From a virus, in IMG/VR virus record IMGVR_UViG_3300031759_000135, positions 1 to 25,221 of that record: DNA of 25,221 bases. One strand, given 5' to 3'. Within the stretch, counting starts at the first letter, position 1, and the number at the start of each line of letters is the position of its first letter. The notes beneath the pieces are model-generated. The model searched no databases, was not told where the DNA came from, and was given only the letters and a program-made list of their open reading frames with translations. The position numbers and the translations under genes were made by a program. Below are positions 2 to 18,987 of the stretch, in pieces.

Positions 2-1060
2 GACGTGCAATCCGCTGCACAGGGTGCTGAATCGGCTTTGCTTTCATTTGGTGATGCTGCGGTAACTTCTGATCAAGCACGAGCAAGTCTACAAAGCGCA
101 AATCAACAAGAAGCAGCAGCGTTGTCAGCGTACAACCAAGCAGTAAGAAATAGCGGTCAAAACTCCTCCGCAGCAAAAAATGCTTTGGATGCGCTTAATC
201 AAGCCAAGCTTCAACAACGTCAAGCATCGTTAGGTGTTGCTCAATCAATCGTTAACGAAAATCAAAATATTTCTCAACTTTCAAAAAGCACTGAGGATCT
301 TTACAAAAAACAGCAAAACAGTATTTCTGTAGCAAAATCTTCTCTTCTCAGTGATCAAATACTGCAAAAAAGTAAACAACAACTTGCAACAGATCAAAAC
401 AATCTGAATAAAGCCCTATCAAGTCCAGCGATTGTAGACTGGTTTAACTCGTTGAAGGCAACAACCGATGCGCTTAAGGGCGACGGAAACCCACAGCATC
501 AAGCGTTGTATGACCTCTTGCACAAGATTGAACAACAAAAACCAGGCGATGCGCTGAAGACAATGAACAGTGCGCTTCCTGGTGTCCAAACGGTAAGCGA
601 TGCAATTACCGCACTTCAAAATCAATTGAATGCTCTTGGACAAACAACTGTTAGTCCTTCAGTAAATTTCAACATTGGTTCTTCTCTTTCTTCATTGATA
701 AGCAGTTTGCCATCTTCTGGTTCAAAACCAATAAAAAAACTTCCTCCAGGACATGCTGCCGGTGGATTAATTACAAGTCCAGAGATTGCGCTTATTGGTG
801 AAGCCGGACCAGAGGTAATCATTCCTTTGAGTAACTTGCCAGGAGGAACTGGACTGGTTACTGGCAACACAACAGTGTCTCCGATTAGAACTGGATCGCC
901 AATTGCAGGTGGTTCGGCCCGAGGAGGACAAGTGATCAACGTCACGGTCAACATGCAGGGTGCGATGTACGGCAACATCAATCAATTTGCCAATGACTTG
1001 GGTCGTGTGCTCGCCACAAAGATCATGCCCAACTCTGGAACTCCGCTCATCACAACATGA
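2..1060 (+). CDS. Tail tape measure protein, C-terminal part (5' end outside window)
   Basis: The frame is open to the left edge, so this is the tail end of a longer gene; the GTG at position 5 is unlikely to be its start. Counting from that codon, residues 1-220 are Gln/Ser/Asn/Ala-rich and probably helical, as in the rod region of tape measure proteins that set tail length. Residues about 253-276 carry GGLITSPEIALIGEAGPEV followed by IIPLS, a C-terminal signature I know from many phage tape measure proteins (G-G-x-x-x-x-P-x-x-x-x-G-E-A-G-P-E). The end is hydrophobic and Gly-rich. The stop overlaps the next start (ATGA), consistent with tail genes translated together. The identification rests on the GEAGPE motif and the position just before a hub-like gene. 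Confidence 0.85.
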   Translation, partial: DVQSAAQGAESALLSFGDAAVTSDQARASLQSANQQEAAALSAYNQAVRNSGQNSSAAKNALDALNQAKLQQRQASLGVAQSIVNENQNISQLSKSTEDLYKKQQNSISVAKSSLLSDQILQKSKQQLATDQNNLNKALSSPAIVDWFNSLKATTDALKGDGNPQHQALYDLLHKIEQQKPGDALKTMNSALPGVQTVSDAITALQNQLNALGQTTVSPSVNFNIGSSLSSLISSLPSSGSKPIKKLPPGHAAGGLITSPEIALIGEAGPEVIIPLSNLPGGTGLVTGNTTVSPIRTGSPIAGGSARGGQVINVTVNMQGAMYGNINQFANDLGRVLATKIMPNSGTPLITT

Positions 1061-2913
1061 GTGACAGCATTGCAGTCCCCAATATCTCTTGCTACATAAC
1101 CCCGCCAGCACTGGGAGTAAACTTCAAGGGAAATATTAAGGACTACTCAAATCTTATTACGGGCATTTCCTCCACGGCGGGAATTATTGTAGGGATGCTT
1201 GTCACTGGTGACGGTATTCAATCCGGCACAACCGTCACTGCAATCAAACCCAACGTCAACAGCACTCCCAAGCACGGTAAACCCGTGCATACTCCAGGAG
1301 TTGTGACGCTTTCAAAAACAATCATTGGCGAGCCAGTCAATGGAGAGCGTGCAGTTCCCTTTGTTGCCAAACAAGTAGAACGTACAAAAGACTACGCATC
1401 GTTCATGTCGTGGAGTGGAGCATCCAATAGCTCAACAATTAGCCAGAACTTTGGACGACAAGGCGATACCGCAACTATTGTTTTGGTCGATGACTACTCT
1501 GCCAGTGTCAGTTCATTCCCAAATGTTGTCGGATCTGGTACTCGCAATCCGCACTTCTACATCCCGCCTTTTTCGGAAATTCTTGTTATAGACAACAACG
1601 TACACGCTGCATCAACAGCGCCGACAAAAAGCATGGCCGAAGGCGTGTTGTTTGCGGGACTCATCACAAATCCAAAGTTTCAGTGGCGTGCTCCTGGACT
1701 TGTCGAGTGGGTGCTCGAATGCGTGGACTACACCTACCTCGCTGACAATGCTTCTGAATCAGGGCTATACGTTGGGCAGCACATCAGCGACATCATCATT
1801 GATCTAACGCAGAACGCAGAGTGTGGGATCAGCGCACAACCTGCGCCCAAGTATTCCAGTGGCCGTGTGTACAAAGCCCCGATTACGCATTACCAAAACC
1901 TTGGGTACGACAAACTGACCAATCACTGGGACGCACTTGCAAAAGCTGCGTCAGGCAACGATGTGTGGGGATGGTACGTCGATTATCAAAAGCGACTTTG
2001 GTTCTATGGATCTCAAGCCCAAGGCCCGCTTTTCAAATCGTACGTTACGGTCACCGACACGATCACTGCGCCAGTACCCAGCATGTGGGAGTGTCACGTC
2101 GACACATCTCAGCAGATGTACTACGAGTACGACACGTCAACCTTTTACACACGGTGTGTTGTTGAGGGTGCAAGCACAACGCACAGTTACACCCTTCCTA
2201 CAGCAAAGAAATCCAAATCTCCCGCAACTCAAACGTGGACTGCAAACGGTCAAGAAACTTCATGGGTTCTTTCCAAAACCCCAGACGTTACTACCGCAAA
2301 CATTGTTGCTTCAGAACAATCAACCAAAAAAGAAGAGTCAAATTTTTATCTGACAATTGGTGGCAAGGCATATCGCGTAGAAGTTTGGGATGCATCTCGT
2401 ACTTCCACCTCTCCGTTTTATTTGCAAGAGAACGTAACGGGTGCAGGGATTCCTGTATGGGCATTGCATTCAAACCCTGCTCATGGTGGATTTTCTCCTG
2501 CCCGAGGCGTAGTGATTAACTTGTGGTACAAGTACATCAGTACTGTTCATGCGGCATCAAACAACGTTTCGCAGCAACGCAAACTTGCATCGCTTCCAAA
2601 CGGTGGAAAATTTACCACCGTTGTAAAAGATCAAACACTGACAACGGTTAAACAAGCGAATCTTCGCGCTGCTTCGGTACTCAAAGAGTATTCAGAACCT
2701 CAAGAACGAATTACGTTTTACACAGACCCTTCTTGGATTGGCGTCTTTCGAGTAGGTCAGACGTTTGTTGGAAACTTCTCCACCATTCCTAACTCTGACA
2801 ATGGTTACCAACTTGGTATCTACAACACGACTTTCTTCATTATCCAACAACAGATAACATTTAAAGACGGCGGGTACAGATCCTGCCAAGTCACAGCGAT
2901 TAGGCATACATAA
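1057..2913 (+). CDS. Tail hub / baseplate-like minor tail protein
   Basis: This 618-residue protein directly follows the tape measure, where phages encode distal-tail and hub proteins. Residues about 195-290 contain the pattern G-x-I-x-N-P-K-F, L-V-E-W-V-L-E-C-x-D-Y and later G-Q-H-I-S-D-I-I-I-D-L, which resembles the hub domain of actinophage and other siphophage minor tail proteins. The C-terminus (from about 545) has F-Y-T-D-P-S-W-I-G and a Tyr/Phe-rich beta section typical of the last hub domain. Residues 21-100 hold one copy of a module that recurs in two other tail proteins here and may have been inserted into the N-terminal domain. Start ATG overlaps the upstream stop. A role as the hub linking tail tube to fibres is inferred; I cannot separate hub from a Dit-hub fusion. 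Confidence 0.7.
   Translation: MSDSIAVPNISCYITPPALGVNFKGNIKDYSNLITGISSTAGIIVGMLVTGDGIQSGTTVTAIKPNVNSTPKHGKPVHTPGVVTLSKTIIGEPVNGERAVPFVAKQVERTKDYASFMSWSGASNSSTISQNFGRQGDTATIVLVDDYSASVSSFPNVVGSGTRNPHFYIPPFSEILVIDNNVHAASTAPTKSMAEGVLFAGLITNPKFQWRAPGLVEWVLECVDYTYLADNASESGLYVGQHISDIIIDLTQNAECGISAQPAPKYSSGRVYKAPITHYQNLGYDKLTNHWDALAKAASGNDVWGWYVDYQKRLWFYGSQAQGPLFKSYVTVTDTITAPVPSMWECHVDTSQQMYYEYDTSTFYTRCVVEGASTTHSYTLPTAKKSKSPATQTWTANGQETSWVLSKTPDVTTANIVASEQSTKKEESNFYLTIGGKAYRVEVWDASRTSTSPFYLQENVTGAGIPVWALHSNPAHGGFSPARGVVINLWYKYISTVHAASNNVSQQRKLASLPNGGKFTTVVKDQTLTTVKQANLRAASVLKEYSEPQERITFYTDPSWIGVFRVGQTFVGNFSTIPNSDNGYQLGIYNTTFFIIQQQITFKDGGYRSCQVTAIRHT
1117..1356 (+). repeat. Dispersed F-x-G-N module, copy in hub protein
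   Basis: Encodes residues 21-100 of the hub-like protein: F-K-G-N, then S-N-L-I-T-x-I-S-S-T-x-G-I, V-G-M, T-G-x-G-I and G-T-T-V-T-x-I, ending in a T-L-S-K strand. The same order of elements occurs in the proteins starting at 3158 and 6037. This copy carries an extra Pro/Lys/His-rich loop (residues about 65-80). Confidence 0.6.
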
Positions 2914-3167
2914 TGAGTACCAATCTCGGGTTTGGATCAGGTGGTGGTGGTGGACGACCGTTCACGATCCAGGATTTGTTTGCCGCAGTGTCTCCGACAA
3001 AGACATCAAACGGAACGCAAACTGGTAATCATGAAGTCATTAATACTCGCGAGTACGTTGCGCTCAATGACATCGTGACGTATGCGAGATACGGTTCATA
3101 TGGCACAGTAGAAGGACCGAATCAGGTCTATAATGTGGCAATCTGGCAGACGGGAATATGGGGCTAA
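2913..3167 (+). CDS. Small glycine-rich protein of the tail operon, function unknown
   Basis: An 84-residue protein whose ATG shares one base with the hub stop (TAATG) and whose end overlaps the next gene by 10 bases, so it is embedded in the tail operon. Residues 5-14 form a Gly-rich flexible stretch, followed by P-F-T-I-Q-D-L-F; the C-terminal half is Tyr-rich (A-R-Y-G-S-Y-G-T) and ends in W-Q-T-G-I-W-G. No signal peptide or membrane segment is seen. I do not recognise the family. Its position between hub and fibre suggests a small tail-tip connector, but this is inference only. Confidence 0.65.
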   Translation: MSTNLGFGSGGGGGRPFTIQDLFAAVSPTKTSNGTQTGNHEVINTREYVALNDIVTYARYGSYGTVEGPNQVYNVAIWQTGIWG

Positions 3168-4693
3168 CACCAATCAACGGTCGTATTACGCTTCGCACTG
3201 AACGCGACGGCGTATGCACAGGTGAGCAGACTTCTCAGAACATCATGTGCAATGGTGGCCTTGGTGAGCTTGCGTCTGCATTGGCATGGTCTGCTGCTCA
3301 AGATCAGGGATCTTTGATCGGTGCCGTCGCAAATTACATGACTCCATTTTATGGGGCTGTTGGTTCGGGAGCATATCCTCCCTTTAGCATCAATGGCGCG
3401 ATCAACAGCGGATCAACTCAGGTCACTCAAGTCTCGCCTAACCAGGTGACGTTTACTGGAAATGTCACTTCTGGTTCAAACTCTGTAACGAGTGTGTCAT
3501 CAACAACGGGAATCTTTGTTGGCATGACATTGTCTGACGTACTGGGATACATCCCTCCTGGCGCACAAGTCACAGCAATTGTTGGTAGCACCTTGACGTT
3601 AAGCGCAAACGCAACAAATAGCGCAACAACGGAAACCATCAACGGTTACTATCCGCTTTCTCCTGGAATGATCATTGAGGCAACCTCTGGCATTCCGTTG
3701 TACACAACAATTTCAAGCTACAGCCCATCAACAAACACCGTCACGATGTCAAAGGCCGCAACCGGCGACACAATGAATAACGCTGTGGCATTGGATATTG
3801 TGACGACTGGTACGACATCGGTAACAAGCAGCAGCTCAACAGCTATTACTACGATTGCTGGCGAGATGTTGATTGTAATCGTTGGATCTTACAACGGAGG
3901 TACAGCAAATCTTTCCATCTCAGATACGCTTGGCGGTCTGACATGGACAAAGATTCAAGGCAGCAACGGCACATCATTTGCTGCGCCTGCAATCTTCTGG
4001 GCAATCGCAAGCACAGCAACGTCTGGAAAAGTCACGGTCACGGACACTGGAACAAGCACGCTTGTCATGCAGCCGTGGCAAGTCAGCAATCAGGGTTCGT
4101 CTCCAATTGTTCAGACCATCAACGCCACGAGTTACGCAGCAAGTTTTACCAATCCACCAAATGCAAACTCGTTGGTAATTACTGTTTTTGAAGAAGCAAA
4201 CGCAAGCACGCCAACAATCACGCAGCCTAATGGATTTACCAGCATGATGGCGACAAGCTCTGGTCCCGTGTATTTGCAAGCTGCTCAGATGAACGGTCTC
4301 GCATATCAGAACATTATGTGGGCAGAGTCGGGTGTTACTGCGGCTCCTGCACTTCTTGCAATTGAGATCCAACCTGGACCGAATACAGCAATGAATGTAG
4401 GAACCTCTGCAACCGACCTTACGCTCTACAACGAACTTGGACGAGCGCAGGTCTCTGCTGTGACCTCGTCGCCTCCTGGATCATCTGGTACAGCAAACAC
4501 CTTCTATCAATTCCAGTTCGAGGCACAGACAGCTACGTTTACATTGACTGAGGCTGGTGTCTTTGCAAACGCAAGCAGCACAGTTGGAACCGGAAGTTTG
4601 CTTGATCATGCGTTGTTTATTCCTCAGTTCACTTGGACAGCGGGCGACACGTTGACAATGACAGCAGAGTTTACATGGAGTAACCCAACATGA
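3158..4693 (+). CDS. Mosaic tail fibre / minor tail protein
   Basis: A 511-residue protein with discontinuous architecture. Residues 1-75 (Q-N-I-M-C-N-G-G-L-G-E-L-A, then F-Y-G-A-V-G-S-G) and residues about 410-511 (T-D-L-T-L-Y-N-E-L-G-R-A-Q-V, then T-E-A-G-V-F and a T-x-T-x-T-x-E-F-T-W end) look like two halves of one phage tail-fibre fold. The 234-residue minus-strand protein at 18283-18987 has the same order of elements without the gap. Between the halves lie two copies of the F-T-G-N module (residues about 97-212) and a Thr/Ser-rich beta domain (about 212-405) with G-E-M-L-I-V-I-V-G and S-D-T-L-G-G-L-T-W. The start ATG lies inside the upstream gene, suggesting translational coupling. Role: structural, distal tail; ligand unknown. 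Confidence 0.7.
   Translation: MGLTPINGRITLRTERDGVCTGEQTSQNIMCNGGLGELASALAWSAAQDQGSLIGAVANYMTPFYGAVGSGAYPPFSINGAINSGSTQVTQVSPNQVTFTGNVTSGSNSVTSVSSTTGIFVGMTLSDVLGYIPPGAQVTAIVGSTLTLSANATNSATTETINGYYPLSPGMIIEATSGIPLYTTISSYSPSTNTVTMSKAATGDTMNNAVALDIVTTGTTSVTSSSSTAITTIAGEMLIVIVGSYNGGTANLSISDTLGGLTWTKIQGSNGTSFAAPAIFWAIASTATSGKVTVTDTGTSTLVMQPWQVSNQGSSPIVQTINATSYAASFTNPPNANSLVITVFEEANASTPTITQPNGFTSMMATSSGPVYLQAAQMNGLAYQNIMWAESGVTAAPALLAIEIQPGPNTAMNVGTSATDLTLYNELGRAQVSAVTSSPPGSSGTANTFYQFQFEAQTATFTLTEAGVFANASSTVGTGSLLDHALFIPQFTWTAGDTLTMTAEFTWSNPT
3446..3793 (+). repeat. Dispersed F-T-G-N module, tandem pair
   Basis: Encodes residues about 97-212 of the fibre protein starting at 3158. The first unit reads F-T-G-N, G-S-N-S-V-T, S-S-T-T-G-I, V-G-M and T-L-S-A-N-A. 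The second, degenerate unit begins at L-S-P-G-M and has S-G-I-P and T-V-T-M-S-K-A-A-T-G. The tandem arrangement matches the C-terminal pair in the protein starting at 6037. Confidence 0.6.
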
Positions 4694-6036
4694 CCTGGCA
4701 AGCTCCCACTCAAGGCCAAGCAACTCTTGTTGGTCACGCAAACCAATTCCTGGTTGGACACCCATCAACCGTGTACTACTCCGGTAGTACCATCGGTAGT
4801 AACCCAACTTTTGCTGCGGGCACTGCAGACACGCTTGGTTCTAATGCGCTGGCGTTTACGTTTACCCTTGCGTCGTCCACAACCATTAACGCTGTGTACT
4901 TGTCGCTCGGCGCAATTGGGGCGGGTGCTGACGTACTCGTATCAATTCAATCGAGCACGGGTAGCACTCCACAGCCAGCAGGAACGTCGGGAACAATTTA
5001 CGCATCTGCGGTCATACCTGCCGAATGGATGCCATCTGGTATTCAAACAACGATCAACAACTTTCACGTTCCACTTGCGTGCACTTTGGCAGCAGGACAG
5101 TACTGGGTTGTTGTGCAGCCGGGGTCAACGATCTACAACTCGACACCGGGTTCGTTGTTTACGGCGACCAATAACTACATCCAGGCTGCTACCGGATACA
5201 ACGACGTGTACCTGTCGAGGTCAACAGCTACGTCTGGTGCATCAACGTATTCGTCATCGTCTGGAACTTGGGCAGTACAGACGTATGGGTATGCCATCTA
5301 CTTGCAAGGTGGAACAACTGGAAACCTACTTGGATTTGCAGACGACCCATATCCTGTAAGCACAGCGTTATCGGTTCCTTCAAAACTCACTGCATATCAT
5401 TACAGCGTTTCTGCACAAATTAACACCGCATATGAATGGGCAACTCGTTCGTATGGATTGGTCAACAACATGTTGTGCCGTGATGATTCTAGTTTTGAAG
5501 TTGGAATTGGAACTTGGGTTGCTGGATCTAACACAACAGTGGCTCAGTCAACCACTCGCGCTCTTGATGGCACACACTCACTTGCATTAACGGCGACAGC
5601 CGCAGGATCAATGGCCGCATCAACTGGAGTCGGAACGTATCCTGCTAGCTACTACCCTGTTGTTGCGGGTCAAACGTATACCGCATCTGCGTATTTTTAT
5701 CCTGGCTCAACAGCGCGTAATGTCAGTGTGTATATCCAGTGGTATACGTCAAGCTCTTCTTCTACCACTACTACTGGAACAAGTGTTTCTGAAGTTCTTA
5801 ACACTTGGACTCAAGTAACGTCGGTCCTTGCTGGCGTTAGTGCAGTTGCACCAGCGGGCGCACTTTACGCACGTGTTGGAGTAAACATCTCATCTGCCGG
5901 TGCTGGTGAAATTCACTACATTGATCAAGTAAATTTGAACATCGGATCGTCTGCTATCTGGTCATATCCTGGTGTTGGCATTGCTTCTAAAAGAACACTT
6001 AGTTACGTATCTCTTAACTTAATAAGCGTGACTTAA
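4690..6036 (+). CDS. Tail fibre protein with carbohydrate-binding-like domain
   Basis: A 448-residue protein; its ATG overlaps the upstream stop by 4 bases. Residues about 40-205 form a beta-rich domain (F-T-F-T-L-A-S-S-T-T-I-N-A-V, V-L-V-S-I-Q, L-A-A-G-Q-Y-W-V-V-V) like jelly-roll anchor domains of phage and secreted proteins. Residues about 258-425 start L-V-N-N-M-L-C-R-D-D-S-S-F-E-V-G-x-G-x-W and continue with D-G-T-H-S-L, G-Q-T-Y-T-A-S-A-Y and I-H-Y-I-D-Q-V-N-L. That order is typical of CenC-like (CBM4/9-type) galactose-binding folds, which bind glycans. A receptor- or cell-wall-polysaccharide-binding role is inferred. No enzymatic motif is seen. The protein is rich in Ser, Thr and Ala, like its neighbours. 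Confidence 0.7.
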   Translation: MTWQAPTQGQATLVGHANQFLVGHPSTVYYSGSTIGSNPTFAAGTADTLGSNALAFTFTLASSTTINAVYLSLGAIGAGADVLVSIQSSTGSTPQPAGTSGTIYASAVIPAEWMPSGIQTTINNFHVPLACTLAAGQYWVVVQPGSTIYNSTPGSLFTATNNYIQAATGYNDVYLSRSTATSGASTYSSSSGTWAVQTYGYAIYLQGGTTGNLLGFADDPYPVSTALSVPSKLTAYHYSVSAQINTAYEWATRSYGLVNNMLCRDDSSFEVGIGTWVAGSNTTVAQSTTRALDGTHSLALTATAAGSMAASTGVGTYPASYYPVVAGQTYTASAYFYPGSTARNVSVYIQWYTSSSSSTTTTGTSVSEVLNTWTQVTSVLAGVSAVAPAGALYARVGVNISSAGAGEIHYIDQVNLNIGSSAIWSYPGVGIASKRTLSYVSLNLISVT

Positions 6037-9000
6037 ATGTCTGTAAGTATTGTTCAAACAGCAAACTCTGGATTAATTTCCGGAACAACAAATTCAACTA
6101 CCGTTACATTAACTTCGCCCCCAACTCCTGGCAATACTTTGATTGCTATTGGCGGTGGAGTTCTCAGCGTTCCATCACAAGGTTTTATTAACATATCTGG
6201 TTATGCATCTATAAACTCTGGCATTGTTTTTCAAAACTGGGAATACAATTCATCTAACGTAAACCCGGTTCAACTCAGTGTTACATATCGTTATTTACAG
6301 CCCGGTGATCAATCATCTTGGACAATCAATTTAGATCCACAAGGATCAGGAACTGCTACCTACGGATGGGGCGTTGTCCTTATTGAGGTTTCCGGATATG
6401 TGCAAATTAATTACAACTACGCTGCCAATAACGTATCGCCGGGAACAGGTGGACCAGTCACTTTGTACGGTACTAACCCTGCAGATTTAATTCTGGGTAT
6501 GGGTACTCAAATGACCGCGCAAAGTGCAACGCAGGGTTGGAGTCAGGGCGCAGGCTCAACAGTTGGTTTTTCTTTGTTAGCAAGTCTTGAGAGTGCTTCA
6601 TACTTTGGTTCGCTTGGGGTATGGTCGCTTTCAAGTCCTGGTGGTTCAGTTACGAGTTACGCAGTGAACACTCCGGTAAACGCTGCAAACTATCAATGGA
6701 TTGGTGGAATTGTTTCAATTACTTCTTCACCAGTTACTGCACACTCATGGGAAGCAGACAGTCAACAAAAATCATTAGAAGTAAGTTGCATCAATCAATT
6801 TCTTGACTTGCACGAATCGCAAGTCGTGTATCAAGGTTCACTGCTTCAACAAACAAGTACTGGAAATTTTAATAACTGGCAACAAGTTGGTGGTTACATG
6901 ATTGACCAACCATTTGTTGCAAATGATTCAACGCTTGGTTTTGTTCGTGTTCCTATTACAAATCAAAATCTTCCGGCACCCGAAGTTGATTTCACTGGAG
7001 ACATCACCGAAGGGTCAAACACAATTGTCAATGTCTCTTCTATTGCAAACCTTTTTGTAGGTATGCCTTTGTATGCAACTGGAATAGACAGTGACACCAC
7101 TATTGTTGCTATTAGTTCTGGTGTCGTGACAATGTCTACATACGCATCAGCAACATTGACACAAAACGATTTTGTTGCAGTTGCTGATGCGATTGGTTAC
7201 GACCATGCGGTCAACATTTCTGTTGGTATCTATAAAGATAACGCTGGTAAACCGGGAACACTTGTTGCTCAGTATCTTGTTCCATCGTCAATTATTGAAT
7301 CAACAGGAAACGCAGACTGGCCTGAGCCTCAAGATGTACTTGGGGGGAAATATGTTGTTGACAGGCTTGCGTCTTTCCCGCAGTATCAGTCAACGCCTTC
7401 TGGAATTAATTTGTTCCAAGCTGGTCAATATGCCGTTTACATTCAAGGTACTTCATCTACTTCTGGTGCTCCAATATGGACATCTTATTACGATGGATCA
7501 GATTTAACTGGTTGGATTTCTAACGGCAATCTACCTCCAAATACAAATGATGGTTATTCAACTGTTGTCTATTGTCCAAATGCTCAAGTTTTAATTGCAT
7601 CTGTTCAAAACAATAATCCTTGGGCTGCGATATTTAATCAACAAACTGGCGTTGTTGGAGCTTGGCAGCAATTAAATCCAACTGGTGGTAGTAGTCTTAT
7701 TTATAATTCAATTCTTGGTGTATTAAGTAACAACGGAATAGATTATTTATTTGTTATTGGTGGAAACGATTCCAGTAGTCCTTATAATAATGGAATAAAT
7801 ACAACTTATTACACTTCAATAAATAACGACGCAACTGATAACGGATGGAGTCTTGGACCACAATTTCCGGTTGATACATGGGCAAGTTTTGGAACTAGTA
7901 GTTTAAATTATTATCAAAGTCCATATTTTAATATGGAAGATGGAAGTCTTGTTGTTCAAAACGGAAACGTATATGTAAATGTTTTTACAATTCCCGGAAC
8001 AAGTACTCGTTCCGGGATGTGGAAACTTTCAAACCCAACTGGGTCATGGCAATACATTGGAGAATTTCCACAGACTGTATACCAAGGTATGTATGCAGCA
8101 GGATCTTTACTTACCGATCTTGGTAGCTACACAAGCTATCCATTGGTTGCGTATACATCTTCACAAACAGGAATTGCTAACTGGGGAATGCAATCTTTAG
8201 GTGGCAACGTGTCTCAAGGACGTTGCGTGTTTGAAAACTCTGATGGTTCATATACTGCATTTTGGTCTCAACAATATGGTGGAACCAGCTACAAACAAGA
8301 AATCTTTCCATGCAATTGGGTAAGCGTACCGATTGGTCTTAACAATTTAACTTCCGGATCAACGTACCACTTGGTACTTAGCGGTTCGACACCAAACAAT
8401 TTTTCAAATGCAAACATTCCAATGATGAATCCTGTTGCTGGTTACAGTCAAACTTCCGCACAGATTTCTTCAAACGGTGGCACAACTTGGACAAGCCTTA
8501 ACGCTTCGGTTCCATGCCTTTTGTACGCTTCGTACAAACCAGGGACTCCAGGCAATGAGGGGATGTTTGGTTTTATTGATGATCAAGGTGCTCGTATTTC
8601 AACGTATTATTTTGGAAGTCCCTCATCTGATCTTATTAATGCGTCTCAGTGGACGGTAACGAATTTTCCCGCAACACTGACTGGATACACGTTTACGGGA
8701 AATACAACGTCGGGGTCAAACACCATTACCGCAATTGCTTCAACCACAGGCATTGTGGCTGGCATGGTTGTAAGCGGAACTGGTATTCCAGTAAATACAA
8801 CCGTTGTGTCAACGACCTCAACAACAATTATAATGAGCAAAAACGCTCAACTAAGCACAAACGGTTTAACTTTTAGCGCAGGTTCAACAATCGTAACTAT
8901 TAATGGACCTCTTGATTTGTCGCCAGGTATGCCTGTTTCCGGAATGGGAATACCAAACAACACCAGTATTGTAACCGTAAACAATTCTTCGCTTGTGCTC

Positions 9001-9117
9001 AACAATGCAGCGACTATGTCGTGTACTACCTTGCTTGCTTCAACAACAACAAGCATTGAGTCATGCACTATTAATTACACAAACGGTGCAATAACTTCAA
9101 TTACTGGATTGATCTGA
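6037..9117 (+). CDS. Large mosaic tail fibre protein (jelly roll, propeller-like region, repeated modules)
   Basis: A 1026-residue protein starting immediately after the upstream stop. Residues 1-230 are a beta domain with P-G-N-T-L-I-A-I-G-G-G, similar to the internal domain of the protein starting at 3158. Residues about 285-480 look like a jelly roll (F-V-R-V-P-I, then V-G-I-Y-K-D-N-A-G-K-P-G), with an F-T-G-D module at 317-385 sitting between its strands. Residues about 485-840 contain repeated D/N-G-W, Y-F-V-I-G-G-N-D and T-Y-Y-T-S-type strands, suggesting a kelch-like beta propeller; I cannot count blades reliably. Residues 884-1010 are two more modules. No catalytic motif is visible. 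Base composition is AT-rich compared with neighbouring genes. No clear ribosome site, so coupling to the upstream gene is likely. Confidence 0.65.
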   Translation: MSVSIVQTANSGLISGTTNSTTVTLTSPPTPGNTLIAIGGGVLSVPSQGFINISGYASINSGIVFQNWEYNSSNVNPVQLSVTYRYLQPGDQSSWTINLDPQGSGTATYGWGVVLIEVSGYVQINYNYAANNVSPGTGGPVTLYGTNPADLILGMGTQMTAQSATQGWSQGAGSTVGFSLLASLESASYFGSLGVWSLSSPGGSVTSYAVNTPVNAANYQWIGGIVSITSSPVTAHSWEADSQQKSLEVSCINQFLDLHESQVVYQGSLLQQTSTGNFNNWQQVGGYMIDQPFVANDSTLGFVRVPITNQNLPAPEVDFTGDITEGSNTIVNVSSIANLFVGMPLYATGIDSDTTIVAISSGVVTMSTYASATLTQNDFVAVADAIGYDHAVNISVGIYKDNAGKPGTLVAQYLVPSSIIESTGNADWPEPQDVLGGKYVVDRLASFPQYQSTPSGINLFQAGQYAVYIQGTSSTSGAPIWTSYYDGSDLTGWISNGNLPPNTNDGYSTVVYCPNAQVLIASVQNNNPWAAIFNQQTGVVGAWQQLNPTGGSSLIYNSILGVLSNNGIDYLFVIGGNDSSSPYNNGINTTYYTSINNDATDNGWSLGPQFPVDTWASFGTSSLNYYQSPYFNMEDGSLVVQNGNVYVNVFTIPGTSTRSGMWKLSNPTGSWQYIGEFPQTVYQGMYAAGSLLTDLGSYTSYPLVAYTSSQTGIANWGMQSLGGNVSQGRCVFENSDGSYTAFWSQQYGGTSYKQEIFPCNWVSVPIGLNNLTSGSTYHLVLSGSTPNNFSNANIPMMNPVAGYSQTSAQISSNGGTTWTSLNASVPCLLYASYKPGTPGNEGMFGFIDDQGARISTYYFGSPSSDLINASQWTVTNFPATLTGYTFTGNTTSGSNTITAIASTTGIVAGMVVSGTGIPVNTTVVSTTSTTIIMSKNAQLSTNGLTFSAGSTIVTINGPLDLSPGMPVSGMGIPNNTSIVTVNNSSLVLNNAATMSCTTLLASTTTSIESCTINYTNGAITSITGLI
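6985..7185 (+). repeat. Dispersed F-T-G-N module, copy inside a jelly-roll domain
   Basis: Encodes residues 317-383 of the large fibre: F-T-G-D, G-S-N-T-I-V, V-S-S-I, F-V-G-M, A-T-G-I, D-T-T-I-V-A-I and V-T-M-S. It is flanked on both sides by what reads as one jelly-roll domain. Confidence 0.55.
8686..9060 (+). repeat. Dispersed F-T-G-N module, C-terminal tandem pair
   Basis: Encodes residues 884 to about 1008 of the large fibre. The first unit has F-T-G-N-T-T-S-G-S-N-T-I-T, S-T-T-G-I and S-G-T-G-I-P. The second has L-S-P-G-M, S-G-M-G-I-P and S-L-V-L-N-N-A-A. It is the best-preserved pair in the window. Confidence 0.6.
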
Positions 9118-9566
9118 TGGATTCAGAAACAATTTATTTTCCAACTCAATCTCCAGGTGTACCGTACGGTACGGTATCGTACTCAAACTTTTCTAACCCT
9201 GGCGCAACATGGACAAGCGTTGGAAGTTCGGCAACGGGTACTGGAAATTACGGAGTGACGTACTCGTCGGGCTCATTAACTTTTAATATTCCAGGAATTT
9301 ATATTGTTACTGCATCACTTACTTTAATTTCAGGAACTACTAATGATGTTAAATCTGTTGGATTTAGCGTAAACGGATCATTCTCAAACAGTAACATTTG
9401 TCAATCTTCTTATATGACATATGCTGCAGCTCTTGGTCAGTACTACACAATAAGCGGTTCTGTGTGCCAAGGATACGCTACCGGAAGTGTTATTCACACT
9501 TACGCATGGACACAGACTGCCGCAACTATTCAATGCTCTCTTGCAGCAGCATTATTAACGAGTTGA
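9117..9566 (+). CDS. C1q/TNF-like jelly-roll tail protein 1 of 3
   Basis: 149 residues; the ATG overlaps the preceding stop by one base (TGATG). It begins M-D-S-E-T, has V-P-Y-G-T-V-S-Y near residue 16, and a central F-N-I-P-G-I-Y-I-V-T-A strand. In C1q/TNF-type jelly rolls a P-G-x-Y strand occupies this position. The rest is short alternating beta strands rich in Ser, Gly and Tyr, ending with I-Q-C-S-L-A-A-A-L-L. Two following genes share the start, the Y-G-x-x-x-Y patch and the central G-x-Y strand, so the three are paralogues. C1q-like heads in phages are trimeric fibre tips, so a receptor-binding role is likely but inferred. Confidence 0.65.
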   Translation: MDSETIYFPTQSPGVPYGTVSYSNFSNPGATWTSVGSSATGTGNYGVTYSSGSLTFNIPGIYIVTASLTLISGTTNDVKSVGFSVNGSFSNSNICQSSYMTYAAALGQYYTISGSVCQGYATGSVIHTYAWTQTAATIQCSLAAALLTS

Positions 9567-9570
9567 TGAC

Positions 9571-10011
9571 ATGGATTCTGAAACGCTTTGGATGATTGCT
9601 CAAAACAGAACGCTTGCAAAAAAACCGTATGGATACATTTATTACGGTTCAAACTCGGTCGTCAACTCATTTCATGCAATGACTGGCGCAGGGACAGCAA
9701 ACGCTTTGTACGGAATGACTTTATTGAATAACTCTTTGTACATTCCGGTAACAGGTTTGTACATAGTTAACTGTCAATTGGGTTTTGGTTTAAGTGTTGC
9801 CGCAGTTGTTTCTGTTGGAATGTTTAGCAACAATAGTGCAATATCTTTAGGAACTTGTAATATGCTAGCCGGTCTAGGACTAGAAGCAACAGGAAATTAT
9901 ATTGGTGGATTAACTGCTGGACAAACTATTCAACTTGGTGCATACGTGTCCACTACCACAACACAATCAATATATGGGTTTATGGAAATTATTTGTTTGG
10001 GAGGATTTTAA
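9571..10011 (+). CDS. C1q/TNF-like jelly-roll tail protein 2 of 3
   Basis: 146 residues, starting M-D-S-E-T-L-W-M-I-A-Q, four bases after the upstream stop. K-P-Y-G-Y-I-Y-Y (residues 18-25) and the central Y-I-P-V-T-G-L-Y-I-V-N-C line up with the paralogues on either side. L-T-A-G-Q-T-I-Q-L-G-A-Y near residue 114-125 is the usual penultimate strand of C1q-like folds (A-G-x-x-I-x-L). The end is F-M-E-I-I-C-L-G-G-F. An overlapping ATG one frame off at 9566 opens only a short frame and was not used. Likely a fibre head or tip subunit; the ligand cannot be read from sequence. Confidence 0.65.
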   Translation: MDSETLWMIAQNRTLAKKPYGYIYYGSNSVVNSFHAMTGAGTANALYGMTLLNNSLYIPVTGLYIVNCQLGFGLSVAAVVSVGMFSNNSAISLGTCNMLAGLGLEATGNYIGGLTAGQTIQLGAYVSTTTTQSIYGFMEIICLGGF

Positions 10012-10482
10012 ATGGATACCCAAACTCTTGTTGCGTTAAATCAGGCAAATAGCAATTCTCAAAAACCCTGGGGATACGTAAATTATCCTTCTCAATCACT
10101 ATCGGGAGGTACCGGCACTCCTGGATGGATTTCTTTTTCATATGGAAATACTGGTTCTTCTTCGTATGGAATGGGATGGAACTCTTTAGGTTTAACTATA
10201 GGAACAACTGGTATTTATTTTGTTTACTTCACCATGACTGACACGGGAATAGGTAACACTTTTCTTGGTGGTGGATTATTGTTTGGAGAAAATTTAACGT
10301 CTTCTTCTACACCACTAATGATTAATTGTGCATATCCAGGAACAGCAGCTTCCGGTCTTAGCCTTACTGGAACTTGGATTGGTCTAATATCTGCAGGCAC
10401 AGCAGTTCAACTTGCAGGATTTACTATTGTAGACTTTTCATGTAGTGCAACACTTACTTCTGTTTATATTGGCCCACAATAA
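10012..10482 (+). CDS. C1q/TNF-like jelly-roll tail protein 3 of 3
   Basis: 156 residues; the start directly abuts the previous stop, with a good GGGAGG ribosome site seven bases upstream. The N-terminus M-D-T-Q-T-L and K-P-W-G-Y-V-N-Y match the two upstream paralogues, as does the central T-T-G-I-Y-F-V-Y strand and the late S-A-G-T-A-V-Q-L-A-G-F strand. It is the most Gly/Ser-rich of the three. It closes the plus-strand tail block: downstream genes look like lysis or accessory functions and are less AT-rich. Probable receptor-binding fibre subunit, by analogy with other phage C1q-like proteins. Confidence 0.65.
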   Translation: MDTQTLVALNQANSNSQKPWGYVNYPSQSLSGGTGTPGWISFSYGNTGSSSYGMGWNSLGLTIGTTGIYFVYFTMTDTGIGNTFLGGGLLFGENLTSSSTPLMINCAYPGTAASGLSLTGTWIGLISAGTAVQLAGFTIVDFSCSATLTSVYIGPQ

Positions 10483-14043: not shown

Positions 14044-14360
14044 GGTAACAATGTGTTTGGAACAATGAGAACCGAGATGGTCCCAACTGCTTGACCGACA
14101 CCACGAGAAATGCCTGCGCCCTGAAATGTTCCCGACATTGAAGTCGTGTCAACGCGGGCACGATACTCGCCTGTTCCTGTACGCCATACGGTGTTTGTTC
14201 CTGGCGTTAAGGCTCCGGTGTATGTGAACTTGATTGGTCCCACGGTGCCACAAGTGAAATTGAATTCCACAATGTCAGGGTCTACAAGATTCCCCGATTC
14301 ATCTATGACGGAGAATGGGAAATCGACAAGGTCTCCCTGCACGTATTTTGTGATGCTCAT
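14040..14360 (-). CDS. Small beta-rich structural protein (BppU-N-like)
   Basis: 106 residues, overlapping both neighbours by four bases. Y-V-Q-G-D-L-V-D-F-P-F-S-V-I-D-E-S-G-N-L-V-D at 6-27 is the opening I know from small phage baseplate/tail domains ('G-D-x-x-x-F-x-F-x-x-x-D-G-x-x-x-D'). V-E-F-N-F-T-C and then V-W-R-T-G-T-G-E-Y-R-A-R-V-D-T-T supply the later strands of an immunoglobulin-like sandwich. It follows the repeat fibre gene, so it may be a fibre accessory or capping protein. No enzymatic signature. Confidence 0.55.
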   Translation of the reverse strand: MSITKYVQGDLVDFPFSVIDESGNLVDPDIVEFNFTCGTVGPIKFTYTGALTPGTNTVWRTGTGEYRARVDTTSMSGTFQGAGISRGVGQAVGTISVLIVPNTLLP

Positions 14361-17305
14361 ATGGAATCAATCTCCATTGTGTTGACTGCTTGAGAAGATA
14401 TACCAGTATCGTAAACGGCTTCACTGGAAAGTGTAGTAGTTGTTACGAGTTCGCTGCTGACATTCAAAGTGTTTGTAGACTGAGACGTTACGTTTGCAAC
14501 GTACGCCAGCAAACTGCTGACGGTAATAAACGCAAGGAACTGCTGACGAGTTGTTGCCGTTCCCATTGCAATGAAGTTGACCGAGAGTTGCCCAACGCTC
14601 GGAAAGAACGCTGATGCTGTACCACTTGCGGTAAAGGTTGTTGTACCAGAACCTGTCCCATTCTGTACAACTGTTCCCGTGCTGGTTGCACCAAAGACAA
14701 AGCTTCCTGTACCAACCTCGGGGCAAACAACCAGCGCAGTTGATGATGCGGTAAAGGTTGACGTACCTGTGCCAGTTGCAGACAGGGAGACAATTGCGCT
14801 TGCTGCGCCAGCAAATTGATAGGTGCCGGTGCCGGTCTCAATTGCAATAACCAAACCAGTACCGGAACCATTGAAGGCTCCGCTTCCTGATGCAGTACTT
14901 GGCTCAACGAGGACAGCAGAGGAAACAGCGGAGAATCCAAATACGCCAGCGGCGGTTGCAAACTCCTCAACCGTTGCGGAAGAAATTCCCAGATAAGCCG
15001 AGACAAACGCTGCGCTCGCAGGGACGATAGTGCTAGCAGTACTTGCTCCGTTGTAATTGAAGCTGGCAGATCCCGTCTCCGGCACCACCACCGTAGCGGT
15101 AGCAGTTGCGGAGAAATCAAACGACTCAGTTGCAGTAGCGGGAACAACAACCGTGGCAGTTGATGATCCCGAGAAACTGTACGACCCTGTTCCCACATAT
15201 GGCAGGAACCATATTGCGGTTCCACTTCCAGCAAACTCGTAGGTACCAGATCCGCTAGCGGAGAAAACAAGACCAAGTGCAGACCCGCTAAAGTTGTACG
15301 TTCCAGTTGCGGTGGCAGGAACAACGATAAGTCCAGCAACAGAAGCAGAGAAGCCAAACGATCCGCTTGCGGTTGAGGGTTCAACCAGCGTAGCCGTTGA
15401 TACTGCGGTAAAGGCAAACGCTTCAGCAGCGGTTGCGCTTTCAACCGTGGTTGCTGTTGATGTTGCGGCAAATCCAAATGTTGCTGCCGCAGTTGCAAGA
15501 ACAACTATTGTTGCGGTAGATGATGCGTTGTAACTAAAAGATCCGGAACCGATCTCTTGTGCTACAACTGTAGCCGTCGATGTCGCCGCAAACGATGCAG
15601 AGAAAGTTCCCGTTGCTGAGATTGTTGTAACTGCCGTACTTGTTGCCGAGAACGAGTACGTTCCGCTCGCAATCGAGGGTTCAACAACAGTTGCGGTCGA
15701 AACAGCAGTGAAGGCAAACGCTCCGGCTGCGGTAGCTGACTCGACTGTTGTTGCTGTGGATACGCCAGCAAATCCAAACGCTGCGGCAGCGGTCGCCGTT
15801 TCTACCGTGGTAGCAGTTGAGACTCCTGAGAAACTAAACGCTGCGGTAGCGGTCGCAGGCACAACAACCGTTGCCGTGGACGACGCGCTAAAACTGAATG
15901 ACCCAGACGCGGTTGCGGGAACCACAACTGTTGCGGTGGATGATCCTGAGTACGAGTACGTTCCTGTTGCTGTTGCTGGAACCACAACCGTTGCTGTTGC
16001 GCTTCCAGCAAAATTGAATGAACTTGCGCCCGTGGCCGTAATAACAACAGTTGCCGTAGATGCACCAGAGAAGCTGTAGGTACCTGTTGCAGTAGCGGGC
16101 ACCACCACGATGGCAGTTGCTGACGCTGAGAAACTGTATGCGCCAGATCCTGTAGCGGGCAGAACATTAACGCCAGTACCAGAACCAGAGAACGCGAAGC
16201 CAGATGAACCCGTACTTGGCTCAACAACTGTCGCCGAAGAAACGCCAGCAAATCCAAACGCTGCTGCTGCTGTTGCGTTCTCAACCGTTGTTGCTGTAGA
16301 TACAGCGGTAAATGCCAAAACCATCGCAGCAGTTGCTGGGATAGTGACAACACCTGTTGCCGTTCCCGAGAATGCAAATGATCCAGTCCCGGTGAAATTG
16401 TCAATGACAACAGAAGTAACCGAGCCACTGCTTGCTTGAGTATCTGTGGCAGTGCGCGAGAATCCAACAGAACGTCTAAGAGTGTCGGAGCTTGCTTGTG
16501 TGTCGCTTGCGCTGCGCGAGAATCCAACGGAGCGCGATACAAAATCACTTGAGCTTTGTGTGTCGCTCGCAGAACGCTTGTACGTTCCTACCGTGCTAAG
16601 AGAGTCAGAGCTTGCCTGAGTATCAGTAGCGGTTCTTTTGGCAACCGTGACGCGAGTGACCGTATCGGAGCTTGCTTGCGTGTCCAAAATGGTTCTTGAA
16701 TATGTTGCAACACGACTTGCGGTATCGCTGGAAGTTTGTGTGTCGCTTGCAGAACGAGAAAACGCGACATTGCGCGTGATCGAATCTGATGAAGATTGGC
16801 TATCTGCAACGGAACGAGTAAAACTAGATTTTGTATTTACTGAATCCGATGACGCTTGTGTATCTGTTTGAGTGCGAGAGAACGCGACGAATCGCGTGGC
16901 GGTATCGCTTGACCCTTGTGTGTCGTTAGCAGCACGACGCGAAACCGTAACTCTGACAAGAGTATCGGTTGACGCTTGAGTATCCGAAACAGAACGAACA
17001 GTTGTCGCAACTCGCGTGACGGAGTCAGACGATGCTTGAGTATCCGTAATAGAACGAGCAAACTTGACCGCTCGCGTAACGGTGTCTGAGCTAGCCTGAG
17101 TATCTGTGGCAGTACGGCTAGCTGTTACAACGCGGGTGACAGAATCTGTACTAGCCTGAGTATCTGTAGCGGTACGTTTGGCAACTGTAACGCGGGTGAC
17201 AGTGTCTGAGCTTGCTTGAGTATCTGTGTTGGTACGAGTGTATTGTTTGGGAAGCTTGCCAGACCCATAAGGTACGCCCGCGTAAGTTGCGCCTCCGTAT
17301 GCCAT
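14357..17305 (-). CDS. 982-residue tail fibre made of 45 twenty-residue repeats
   Basis: A long fibrous protein. Residues 1-23 (M-A-Y-G-G-A-T-Y-A-G-V-P-Y-G-S-G) look like a phage fibre head-end motif. Residues 24-303 are 14 units of 20 residues with core R-[ST]-x-x-D-T-Q-A-S-S-D-[TS]-V-T-R. Residues 307-925 are about 31 units with core x-G-[TS]-[FY]-x-F-x-x-x-S-T-A-T-V-V-x-P-A-T-[AG]; one unit is 19 residues long. Residues 940-979 are four 10-residue units. Almost no Lys, Cys, Trp or Pro apart from the conserved ones, and no catalytic motif. Repeats of this kind form beta-solenoid or extended beta shafts, so a long tail fibre or whisker is likely. It abuts the collar-domain fibre gene (four bases apart) and overlaps the next gene by four bases. 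Confidence 0.7.
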   Translation of the reverse strand: MAYGGATYAGVPYGSGKLPKQYTRTNTDTQASSDTVTRVTVAKRTATDTQASTDSVTRVVTASRTATDTQASSDTVTRAVKFARSITDTQASSDSVTRVATTVRSVSDTQASTDTLVRVTVSRRAANDTQGSSDTATRFVAFSRTQTDTQASSDSVNTKSSFTRSVADSQSSSDSITRNVAFSRSASDTQTSSDTASRVATYSRTILDTQASSDTVTRVTVAKRTATDTQASSDSLSTVGTYKRSASDTQSSSDFVSRSVGFSRSASDTQASSDTLRRSVGFSRTATDTQASSGSVTSVVIDNFTGTGSFAFSGTATGVVTIPATAAMVLAFTAVSTATTVENATAAAAFGFAGVSSATVVEPSTGSSGFAFSGSGTGVNVLPATGSGAYSFSASATAIVVVPATATGTYSFSGASTATVVITATGASSFNFAGSATATVVVPATATGTYSYSGSSTATVVVPATASGSFSFSASSTATVVVPATATAAFSFSGVSTATTVETATAAAAFGFAGVSTATTVESATAAGAFAFTAVSTATVVEPSIASGTYSFSATSTAVTTISATGTFSASFAATSTATVVAQEIGSGSFSYNASSTATIVVLATAAATFGFAATSTATTVESATAAEAFAFTAVSTATLVEPSTASGSFGFSASVAGLIVVPATATGTYNFSGSALGLVFSASGSGTYEFAGSGTAIWFLPYVGTGSYSFSGSSTATVVVPATATESFDFSATATATVVVPETGSASFNYNGASTASTIVPASAAFVSAYLGISSATVEEFATAAGVFGFSAVSSAVLVEPSTASGSGAFNGSGTGLVIAIETGTGTYQFAGAASAIVSLSATGTGTSTFTASSTALVVCPEVGTGSFVFGATSTGTVVQNGTGSGTTTFTASGTASAFFPSVGQLSVNFIAMGTATTRQQFLAFITVSSLLAYVANVTSQSTNTLNVSSELVTTTTLSSEAVYDTGISSQAVNTMEIDSI
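14369..14488 (-). repeat. C-terminal array of four 10-residue units
   Basis: Codes for residues 940-979: T-S-Q-S-T-N-T-L-N-V, S-S-E-L-V-T-T-T-T-L, S-S-E-A-V-Y-D-T-G-I and S-S-Q-A-V-N-T-M-E-I. The period is exactly half of the 20-residue repeats before it. Confidence 0.65.
14531..16387 (-). repeat. Repeat array B: about 31 units of 60 bp
   Basis: Codes for residues 307-925. Consensus T-G-T-Y-S-F-S-G-S-S-T-A-T-V-V-V-P-A-T-A. Aromatics at positions 4 and 6 and the V-V-V-P strand are the most constant. A second variant (A-A-A-F-G-F-A-G-V-S-T-A-T-T-V-E-S-A-T-A) recurs among the common form. One unit (T-G-T-Y-N-F-S-G-S-A-L-G) is one residue short. Confidence 0.9.
16397..17236 (-). repeat. Repeat array A: 14 units of 60 bp
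   Basis: Codes for residues 24-303 of the repeat fibre. All units are exactly 60 bp. Consensus core D-T-Q-A-S-S-D-T-V-T-R. Units 1-2 and 10-11 share an identical protein stretch (D-T-V-T-R-V-T-V-A-K-R-T-A-T-D-T-Q-A-S) yet differ at about 10 of 60 bases by my count. Confidence 0.9.
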
Positions 17306-18282: not shown

Positions 18283-18987
18283 TTACGAGAAAGTGATCTG
18301 GAACGTAAGCTGCAATGTATCCGCTGAAGTAATAACTGCAGTTGCACTAAGTACGGTGCGGTCGTACATCGTTCCAGATGGAGTACCGGCAACGGTCTGA
18401 ATGGAGATGTTGTCAAACATTCCCGCCTCAGCAATCGTCACCGTGGTACCACCGTTGATGTTACCGGCCACCGACGTAGCGGTTTGCTGGTAGACGTTGG
18501 TGGTGTTAGAACCTGTACCCAACAAACGCTGACCTGATGCTGCGCCACGAACCTCAGTGATTGGGCTACCCGTACCACCACCAAGAGCAGTATCACCCAC
18601 GGCTGCGGCAGTCGAGCCGGTCCCGATGCCGAGGTACTTCATGAATGGCGTCGTGGTTGGAGTCGCAGTTGCGAGGTAGTTTGCAAGCGCGGTCTTGCCA
18701 ACAGTCGTGATGATCTTGGCAGAGCGCCATGCGCCTGTCTCAATGCCATCGCCGTTGAAACGACGGATGTCCCACGATCCAATCATCAAACCAGCAGGCA
18801 ACTGCTCGCCAATTTCTGGACCCCAGACACCGTACATTTTCTCCCAGTCTTTCCGGTAGAAAAGATCGTTCTGGTAGATCTGCTCTAGGCGTTCGCCTTG
18901 AGTTGTCTCGGTTGAGTTGTGCCAGATATTTAACAGACCCTCGTAGGTCAAGTTTGTTGGAGTTCTGCCGTTAAGCAAAGCAGTCAT
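18283..18987 (-). CDS. Tail fibre-like structural protein
   Basis: 234 residues. The first 85 residues are helical/mixed (Y-E-G-L-L-N-I-W-H-N-S, E-R-L-E-Q-I-Y-Q-N-D), unlike the beta-rich fibres. From residue about 88, K-I-I-T-T-V-G-K-T-A-L-A-N-Y-L, then K-Y-L-G-I-G-T-G-S-T-A, D-T-A-L-G-G-G, E-V-R-G-A-A, T-I-A-E-A-G-M-F-D and a final T-L-Q-L-T-F-Q-I-T-F follow the order of a widespread tail protein fold. The plus-strand protein at 3158-4693 carries the same elements split by a long insert. The ATG is preceded by AAAAGGAATAGGT and lies two bases after the upstream stop. Probably a fibre or adaptor; exact role unknown. Confidence 0.65.
   Translation of the reverse strand: MTALLNGRTPTNLTYEGLLNIWHNSTETTQGERLEQIYQNDLFYRKDWEKMYGVWGPEIGEQLPAGLMIGSWDIRRFNGDGIETGAWRSAKIITTVGKTALANYLATATPTTTPFMKYLGIGTGSTAAAVGDTALGGGTGSPITEVRGAASGQRLLGTGSNTTNVYQQTATSVAGNINGGTTVTIAEAGMFDNISIQTVAGTPSGTMYDRTVLSATAVITSADTLQLTFQITFS

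Follow-up and report, generated by a model that had tools for sequence, protein, structure and literature searches.

A small beta module inserted in loops of unrelated phage virion proteins

A small autonomous beta domain, about 55-70 residues long, is repeated in tail proteins of the phage studied here, and probably it is a module that sits, singly or in tandem, in loops of unrelated virion proteins, where it would serve decoration or adhesion, stability, or both. The window, by which we mean the whole stretch of DNA analysed, is the 25,221-base IMG/VR record IMGVR_UViG_3300031759_000135, and it encodes the end of a tape-measure protein followed by tail genes. The six units that an initial annotation had pointed out in three of the encoded proteins are all there: one in protein A (starting at 1057), two in protein B (3158) and three in protein C (6037). 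They are also homologues, as had been proposed, since they align and since a profile HMM built from 63 copies from other viruses, with every window copy left out, detects all six (A1 37.9, B1 32.6, B2 24.3, C1 30.6, C2 46.0 and C3 42.6 bits; E-values from 4.5e-6 to 8e-13 in a search of 3,604 ORFs), the match to A1 covering its first two thirds only.

A second record (IMGVR_UViG_3300032675_000048; 42,758 bases) has tail genes identical to those of the window plus more of the genome, and holds nine module copies in five proteins. The three copies beyond the window are two in the tail tube and one in a 387-aa protein. The hosts in the window phage are a hub, a tail protein of the phrog_5417 type, a tail protein with a D-type domain (see below) and a propeller, the tail tube (twice) and the 387-aa protein. 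Promiscuous Ig-like domains on phages are already known, but this module, though widespread, has no entry in Pfam or NCBIfam and in PHROGs is present only inside larger families, where it is hidden. With a profile for the module, many virion proteins would be annotated anew.

Distribution among virion proteins and possible role

To find further copies we used a DNA pattern of the module core, which matched 49 viral contigs and 21 genome contigs. Hosts elsewhere include an SU10-type head-tail adaptor, a phrog_3287 virion protein, a phrog_2175 Ig-domain protein and a protein of the baseplate-wedge type that carries three copies. The adaptor, a baseplate J-like protein, the tail tube, the hub, a 244-aa virion protein and the D-type tail protein are unrelated hosts. 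The module had been described from tail proteins; its presence also in the head-tail adaptor, in other virion proteins and in a capsid decoration protein makes it a general virion module. On genome contigs (L058, L061-L070, L073, L075, L077), mostly from Verrucomicrobiota, very long proteins have several HMM matches, which suggests that surface proteins of bacteria use the module too, the homology in this case being that given by the HMM alone.

Some hosts exist with and without the module. The SU10-type adaptor has it in L008, L093 and L096 and lacks it in L103 and L105, at about 60% identity, and the 244-aa virion protein (the L041 group) has 173-aa relatives, 70-75% identical, that lack exactly the module. 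Such pairs, to which the hub and the tail tube can be added, are natural experiments on decoration function.

As for what the modules do, by analogy to phage Ig-like domains they may act through weak multivalent adhesion to cell-surface glycans, through added stability, or both. The copies would decorate the outside of the tail, and a copy in the tail tube, being repeated in every tube ring, could make many weak contacts. Surface decoration and weak cell-surface binding are what we infer, and it is plausible that the modules vary tail surfaces. Comparison of their genes shows that the module is dispensable for relatives of the window phage. A real though doubtful possibility is that the modules serve assembly or virion stability, as cement or decoration proteins do, and not adhesion. 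The single solved sequence relative is indeed a capsid decoration protein (8ECI), and modules occur in proteins that are not adhesins, namely head-tail adaptors and further virion proteins other than fibres; but relatives in the same phage group assemble without modules, and tailspikes that degrade polysaccharides (4y9v, 4hiz) have small domains of this fold.

Host folds interrupted by the module and uninterrupted in relatives

The hub motif FGRQGDTA, turned into a degenerate DNA pattern, brought together 61 viral loci. Nearly all of them are relatives of the window tail region, the relatives being 36-55% identical. Comparison with these relatives shows the module inserted, at several sites, in folds that are continuous without it. 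Named phages offered little: a tblastn search with the window proteins found for protein A a single distant hub relative in phage THSA-485A, for protein C a single stretch, at an E-value of 0.4, of Bordetella phage PHB04 (two records), and no match for protein B. Pfam has no family for A and B at E<=1, and for C only Kelch_6 (0.45). That a module can divide the fold of its host helps to explain the failure of some tail proteins in family searches.

Protein A (1057-2913, plus strand) is of the tail hub type and its gene comes directly after that of the tape-measure protein. Module A1 (1117-1368, residues 21-104) bears an insertion of about 15 residues ahead of its last strands. In the 58 hub relatives, which are 37-40% identical to protein A outside the module, the alignment starts only at about residue 110, and a conserved N-terminal ITPP segment runs straight into the next segment; we conclude that A1 is absent from all 58.

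Protein B (3158-4693, plus strand), the phrog_5417-type tail protein, has an insert at residues ~77-416 (3386-4405) that contains B1 (3446-3640), B2 (3602-3799) and a separate domain of about 190 residues (3800-4372, residues 215-405), for which no family match was found. Residues ~1-75 abut residues ~417-507 in 35 relatives, with -8 to +7 residues between the two flanks, so both modules and the ~190-aa domain are absent there. The module pair had been placed within a fold that is continuous in the protein at 18283-18987 (minus strand), and this is borne out: the 35 relatives lack about residues 76-416 of B, and both the 18283 protein (E-value 4e-10) and L176, a module-free relative of B, match phrog_5417, which makes the former an uninterrupted member of the family. 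With the insert excised, B aligns to the 18283 protein better than 500 of 500 shuffles, while its N-terminal part alone fails to beat shuffles. BLASTP between B and the 18283 protein gives no significant match, the link having come through the relatives and phrog_5417. The description of the insert needs amending in one respect, which is that the pair is accompanied in it by the ~190-aa domain.

Protein C (6037-9117, plus strand) has an N-terminal domain (residues 1-236), a domain split by C1 (6985-7188) and by a Kelch-like beta-propeller region (7321-8295), and then C2 (8686-8880) in tandem with C3 (8857-9042). The first ~215 residues of the preceding protein D (4690-6036, plus strand), which has full-length relatives in L173, L202, L196 and L213, are the uninterrupted form of the split domain. 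C matches D by BLASTP with an E-value of 3e-4. When the module and the propeller are cut out, C aligns to D residues 1-215 with a score of 120 (z 11; reached in 0 of 500 shuffles), and cutting C1 alone raises a partial C-D score from 70 to 92. In addition, relatives of C that keep the two-part domain and the propeller have an empty C1 site, as seen in L155, L166, L172, L178 and L205 among others, and 16 related loci bear the signature of an empty site. The claim that C1 splits a domain is confirmed by both results. The propeller aligns with that of L155, L166, L172 and L178, the first of which matches the Kelch family PF24681 at 1.1e-13, and being common to relatives it is an older insertion than C1. 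An AlphaFold model of C residues 231-1026, from 8 sequences, has a mean pLDDT of 40, too poor to judge whether the split domain is the jelly roll for which the initial annotation took it. A kinship of the N-terminal domain of C with residues 215-405 of B was rejected (z -0.5, not above shuffles).

The tail-tube host belongs to Phage_tube_2 (PF18906), with 38.9 bits against a curated cut-off of 27, and because of the insertions the match is spread over residues 21-397. At the second of its two module sites the flanks join in the relatives seen. Likewise, in relatives of the 387-aa protein, residue ~186 joins residue ~256, and the module site is empty.

Two further groups of window genes deserve mention. 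Immediately after protein C lie three adjoining small proteins (9117-9566, 9571-10011 and 10012-10482, plus strand) that start with MDSET or MDTQT and have a beta pattern in common (GIYIV, GLYIV, GIYFV), and have the look of tandem paralogues of the C1q/TNF-like head type. A 982-aa protein (14357-17305, minus strand), with no match in a Pfam search, has two repeat arrays, first of ~15-residue units (TDTQASSDTVTR...) and then of ~20-residue units (...ATGTYSFSGSSTATVVVP...).

Age and spread of the copies

The initial annotation took the module for a mobile domain. This stands insofar as one homologous domain is found at unrelated positions in other folds, with presence and absence in several lineages. 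It does not stand for recent jumping in the genome, of which there is no sign: the nine copies have mean identities of 35% at the amino-acid and only 43% at the nucleotide level, with a nucleotide maximum of 55%, and on these nucleotide identities we reject recent internal duplication. Eight of the nine copies have a closer match in another phage than among their siblings, and for the ninth the two are equally close, in a comparison where the larger pool of foreign copies favours nearer foreign matches. Low identity and nearer foreign copies both argue against recent duplication, and fit either acquisition on several occasions or divergence over a long time. We saw no mobile element, and the module may have spread instead through long-term recombination between virion genes.

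By parsimony, gain here is favoured over many losses, among relatives that are only 36-55% identical. An ancestral presence of the modules in these tail proteins, followed by loss in the relatives, is unlikely. The copies are old enough, by their mean amino-acid identity, that divergence alone would be compatible with such a history, but it needs losses in 58 hub relatives, in 35 B relatives and, in every relative seen, at the second loop of the tail tube, each with a clean joint, and the module HMM finds in the 61 related loci no copy beyond the window phage's own.

The tandem pair in protein B

We obtained an AlphaFold model of B from an alignment that left out the 18283 protein, which misaligned. 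Residues 91-200 are mostly at pLDDT 80-98 and nearly all else is below 50; with confidence high in the modules and low elsewhere, the model is usable for the module fold and not for the host fold. B1 lies in the confident region, the secondary structure of B2 is taken from the same model, and the two have a long strand in common (residues 156-165). This arrangement bears on the possibility that B1 interrupts B2, one module lying within another, for which residues 76-96 look like a first strand and, joined to B2, give 25.8-27.2 bits. We consider it very unlikely and have rejected it, as native B2 scores slightly better (28.8 bits), so that nesting does no better than tandem copies, and the model has B1 and B2 as neighbours around their common strand.

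Controls for the module HMM

When all ORFs were shuffled five times, the best score of the module HMM was 12.1 bits; reversed ORFs gave at best 8.7 bits, and 3,000 shuffles of proteins A, B and C at best 11.9 bits. That the six units are alike by composition only, as low-complexity Thr/Ser/Gly beta sequence, is hardly credible and refuted by these controls, for although the units are rich in Ser, Thr and Gly and a filtered tblastn search with C2-C3 gave no phage match, they score 24-46 bits against at most 12.1 for shuffled or reversed sequence, the HMM singles out the window phage among the 61 related loci, and the module fold is predicted with high confidence.

Tail-tube loops and a second module type

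The first tail-tube site is occupied in a different manner. Where relatives have another type of module (type 2), the window phage has its own (type 1). Across 27 relatives, type 2 copies at this site number none in 12, one in 11 and two in 4. Type 2 modules are seen in the tail-tube genes of L158, L160, L161, L175, L179, L207 and others, with the pattern TTL...AGATTVTVTSATGF..GQ.VQID...EVRK...LTLD.AL.YAHASGA. They match the Pfam family K1-lyase_Rider (PF24149), at best with 7e-6, the member shown being below the curated cut-off, while none of 23 type 1 modules matches this family. By sequence, the type 2 profile is matched best by 9N71, the tail tube of Acinetobacter phage Mystique. Comparing the two types directly, hhalign reports a probability of 15% and an E-value of 0.0017, and their relation by sequence is only suggestive.

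With none, one or two Rider-like copies at one tube loop, the docking loops look interchangeable. We put forward, as a tentative idea that is somewhat less likely than not, that the SGTGIP type and the Rider or tail-tube type each form a branch of a single, uncatalogued superfamily of virion decoration domains, swapped at fixed docking loops that hold none, one or two copies of either type. If so, the decoration of the virion would be a layer that can be exchanged whatever protein lies beneath it.

Comparison with known systems

Foldseek neighbours of the module are the 9N71 tail tube (top), the AP22 tailspike (4y9v), 8ECI, endosialidases and ubiquitin E1 enzymes, the E-values (0.01-0.2) being weak owing to the poor quality of the model elsewhere. 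The matched parts of 4hiz, 3ju4, 4p22 and 7sol we take to be the endosialidase beta-barrel (PF12195) or the E1 FCCH domain (PF16190); the module is matched in these structures by fold, and in sequence it matched neither domain.

The Mystique tail tube, with its Rider-type insertion domain, resembles the case described here in two ways: relatives use the same tail-tube loop, and by fold the window module matches it best. It differs in that the sequence link between the Rider type and the window module type is weak.

Ig-like domains of tailed phages, whose promiscuity in virion proteins was reported in 2006 (Fraser et al. 2006, as cited in PMC10721106), are, like the module, small beta domains found in many virion proteins that are unrelated to one another. 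One case described in PMC10721106 is lambda gpJ, where a domain of the protein has an FNIII domain inserted in it; in that paper weak carbohydrate binding by phage Ig-like domains is also given as a proposal (citing Fraser et al. 2006). The module is unlike them in sequence family, as none of the 23 modules matches an Ig-type family and no Ig, FNIII or Big match was found in Pfam, and by fold it best matches small beta domains of other kinds.

Finally, gp7 of Arthrobacter phage Bridgette is like the window module both by sequence homology and by fold. The module profile matches 8ECI with an E-value of 9.8e-7 over 57 of 64 profile positions, and the folds agree with a Foldseek probability of 1.00 and an rmsd of 2.0 over 73 columns (E-value 0.05). 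The adaptor of L008 also matches 8ECI (0.0045), and the 8ECI sequence matches gp7 of Arthrobacter phages, that of Bridgette included. The difference is one of context: in Bridgette it is a separate capsid decoration protein of 126 residues, whereas here the domain sits in the loops of tail proteins.
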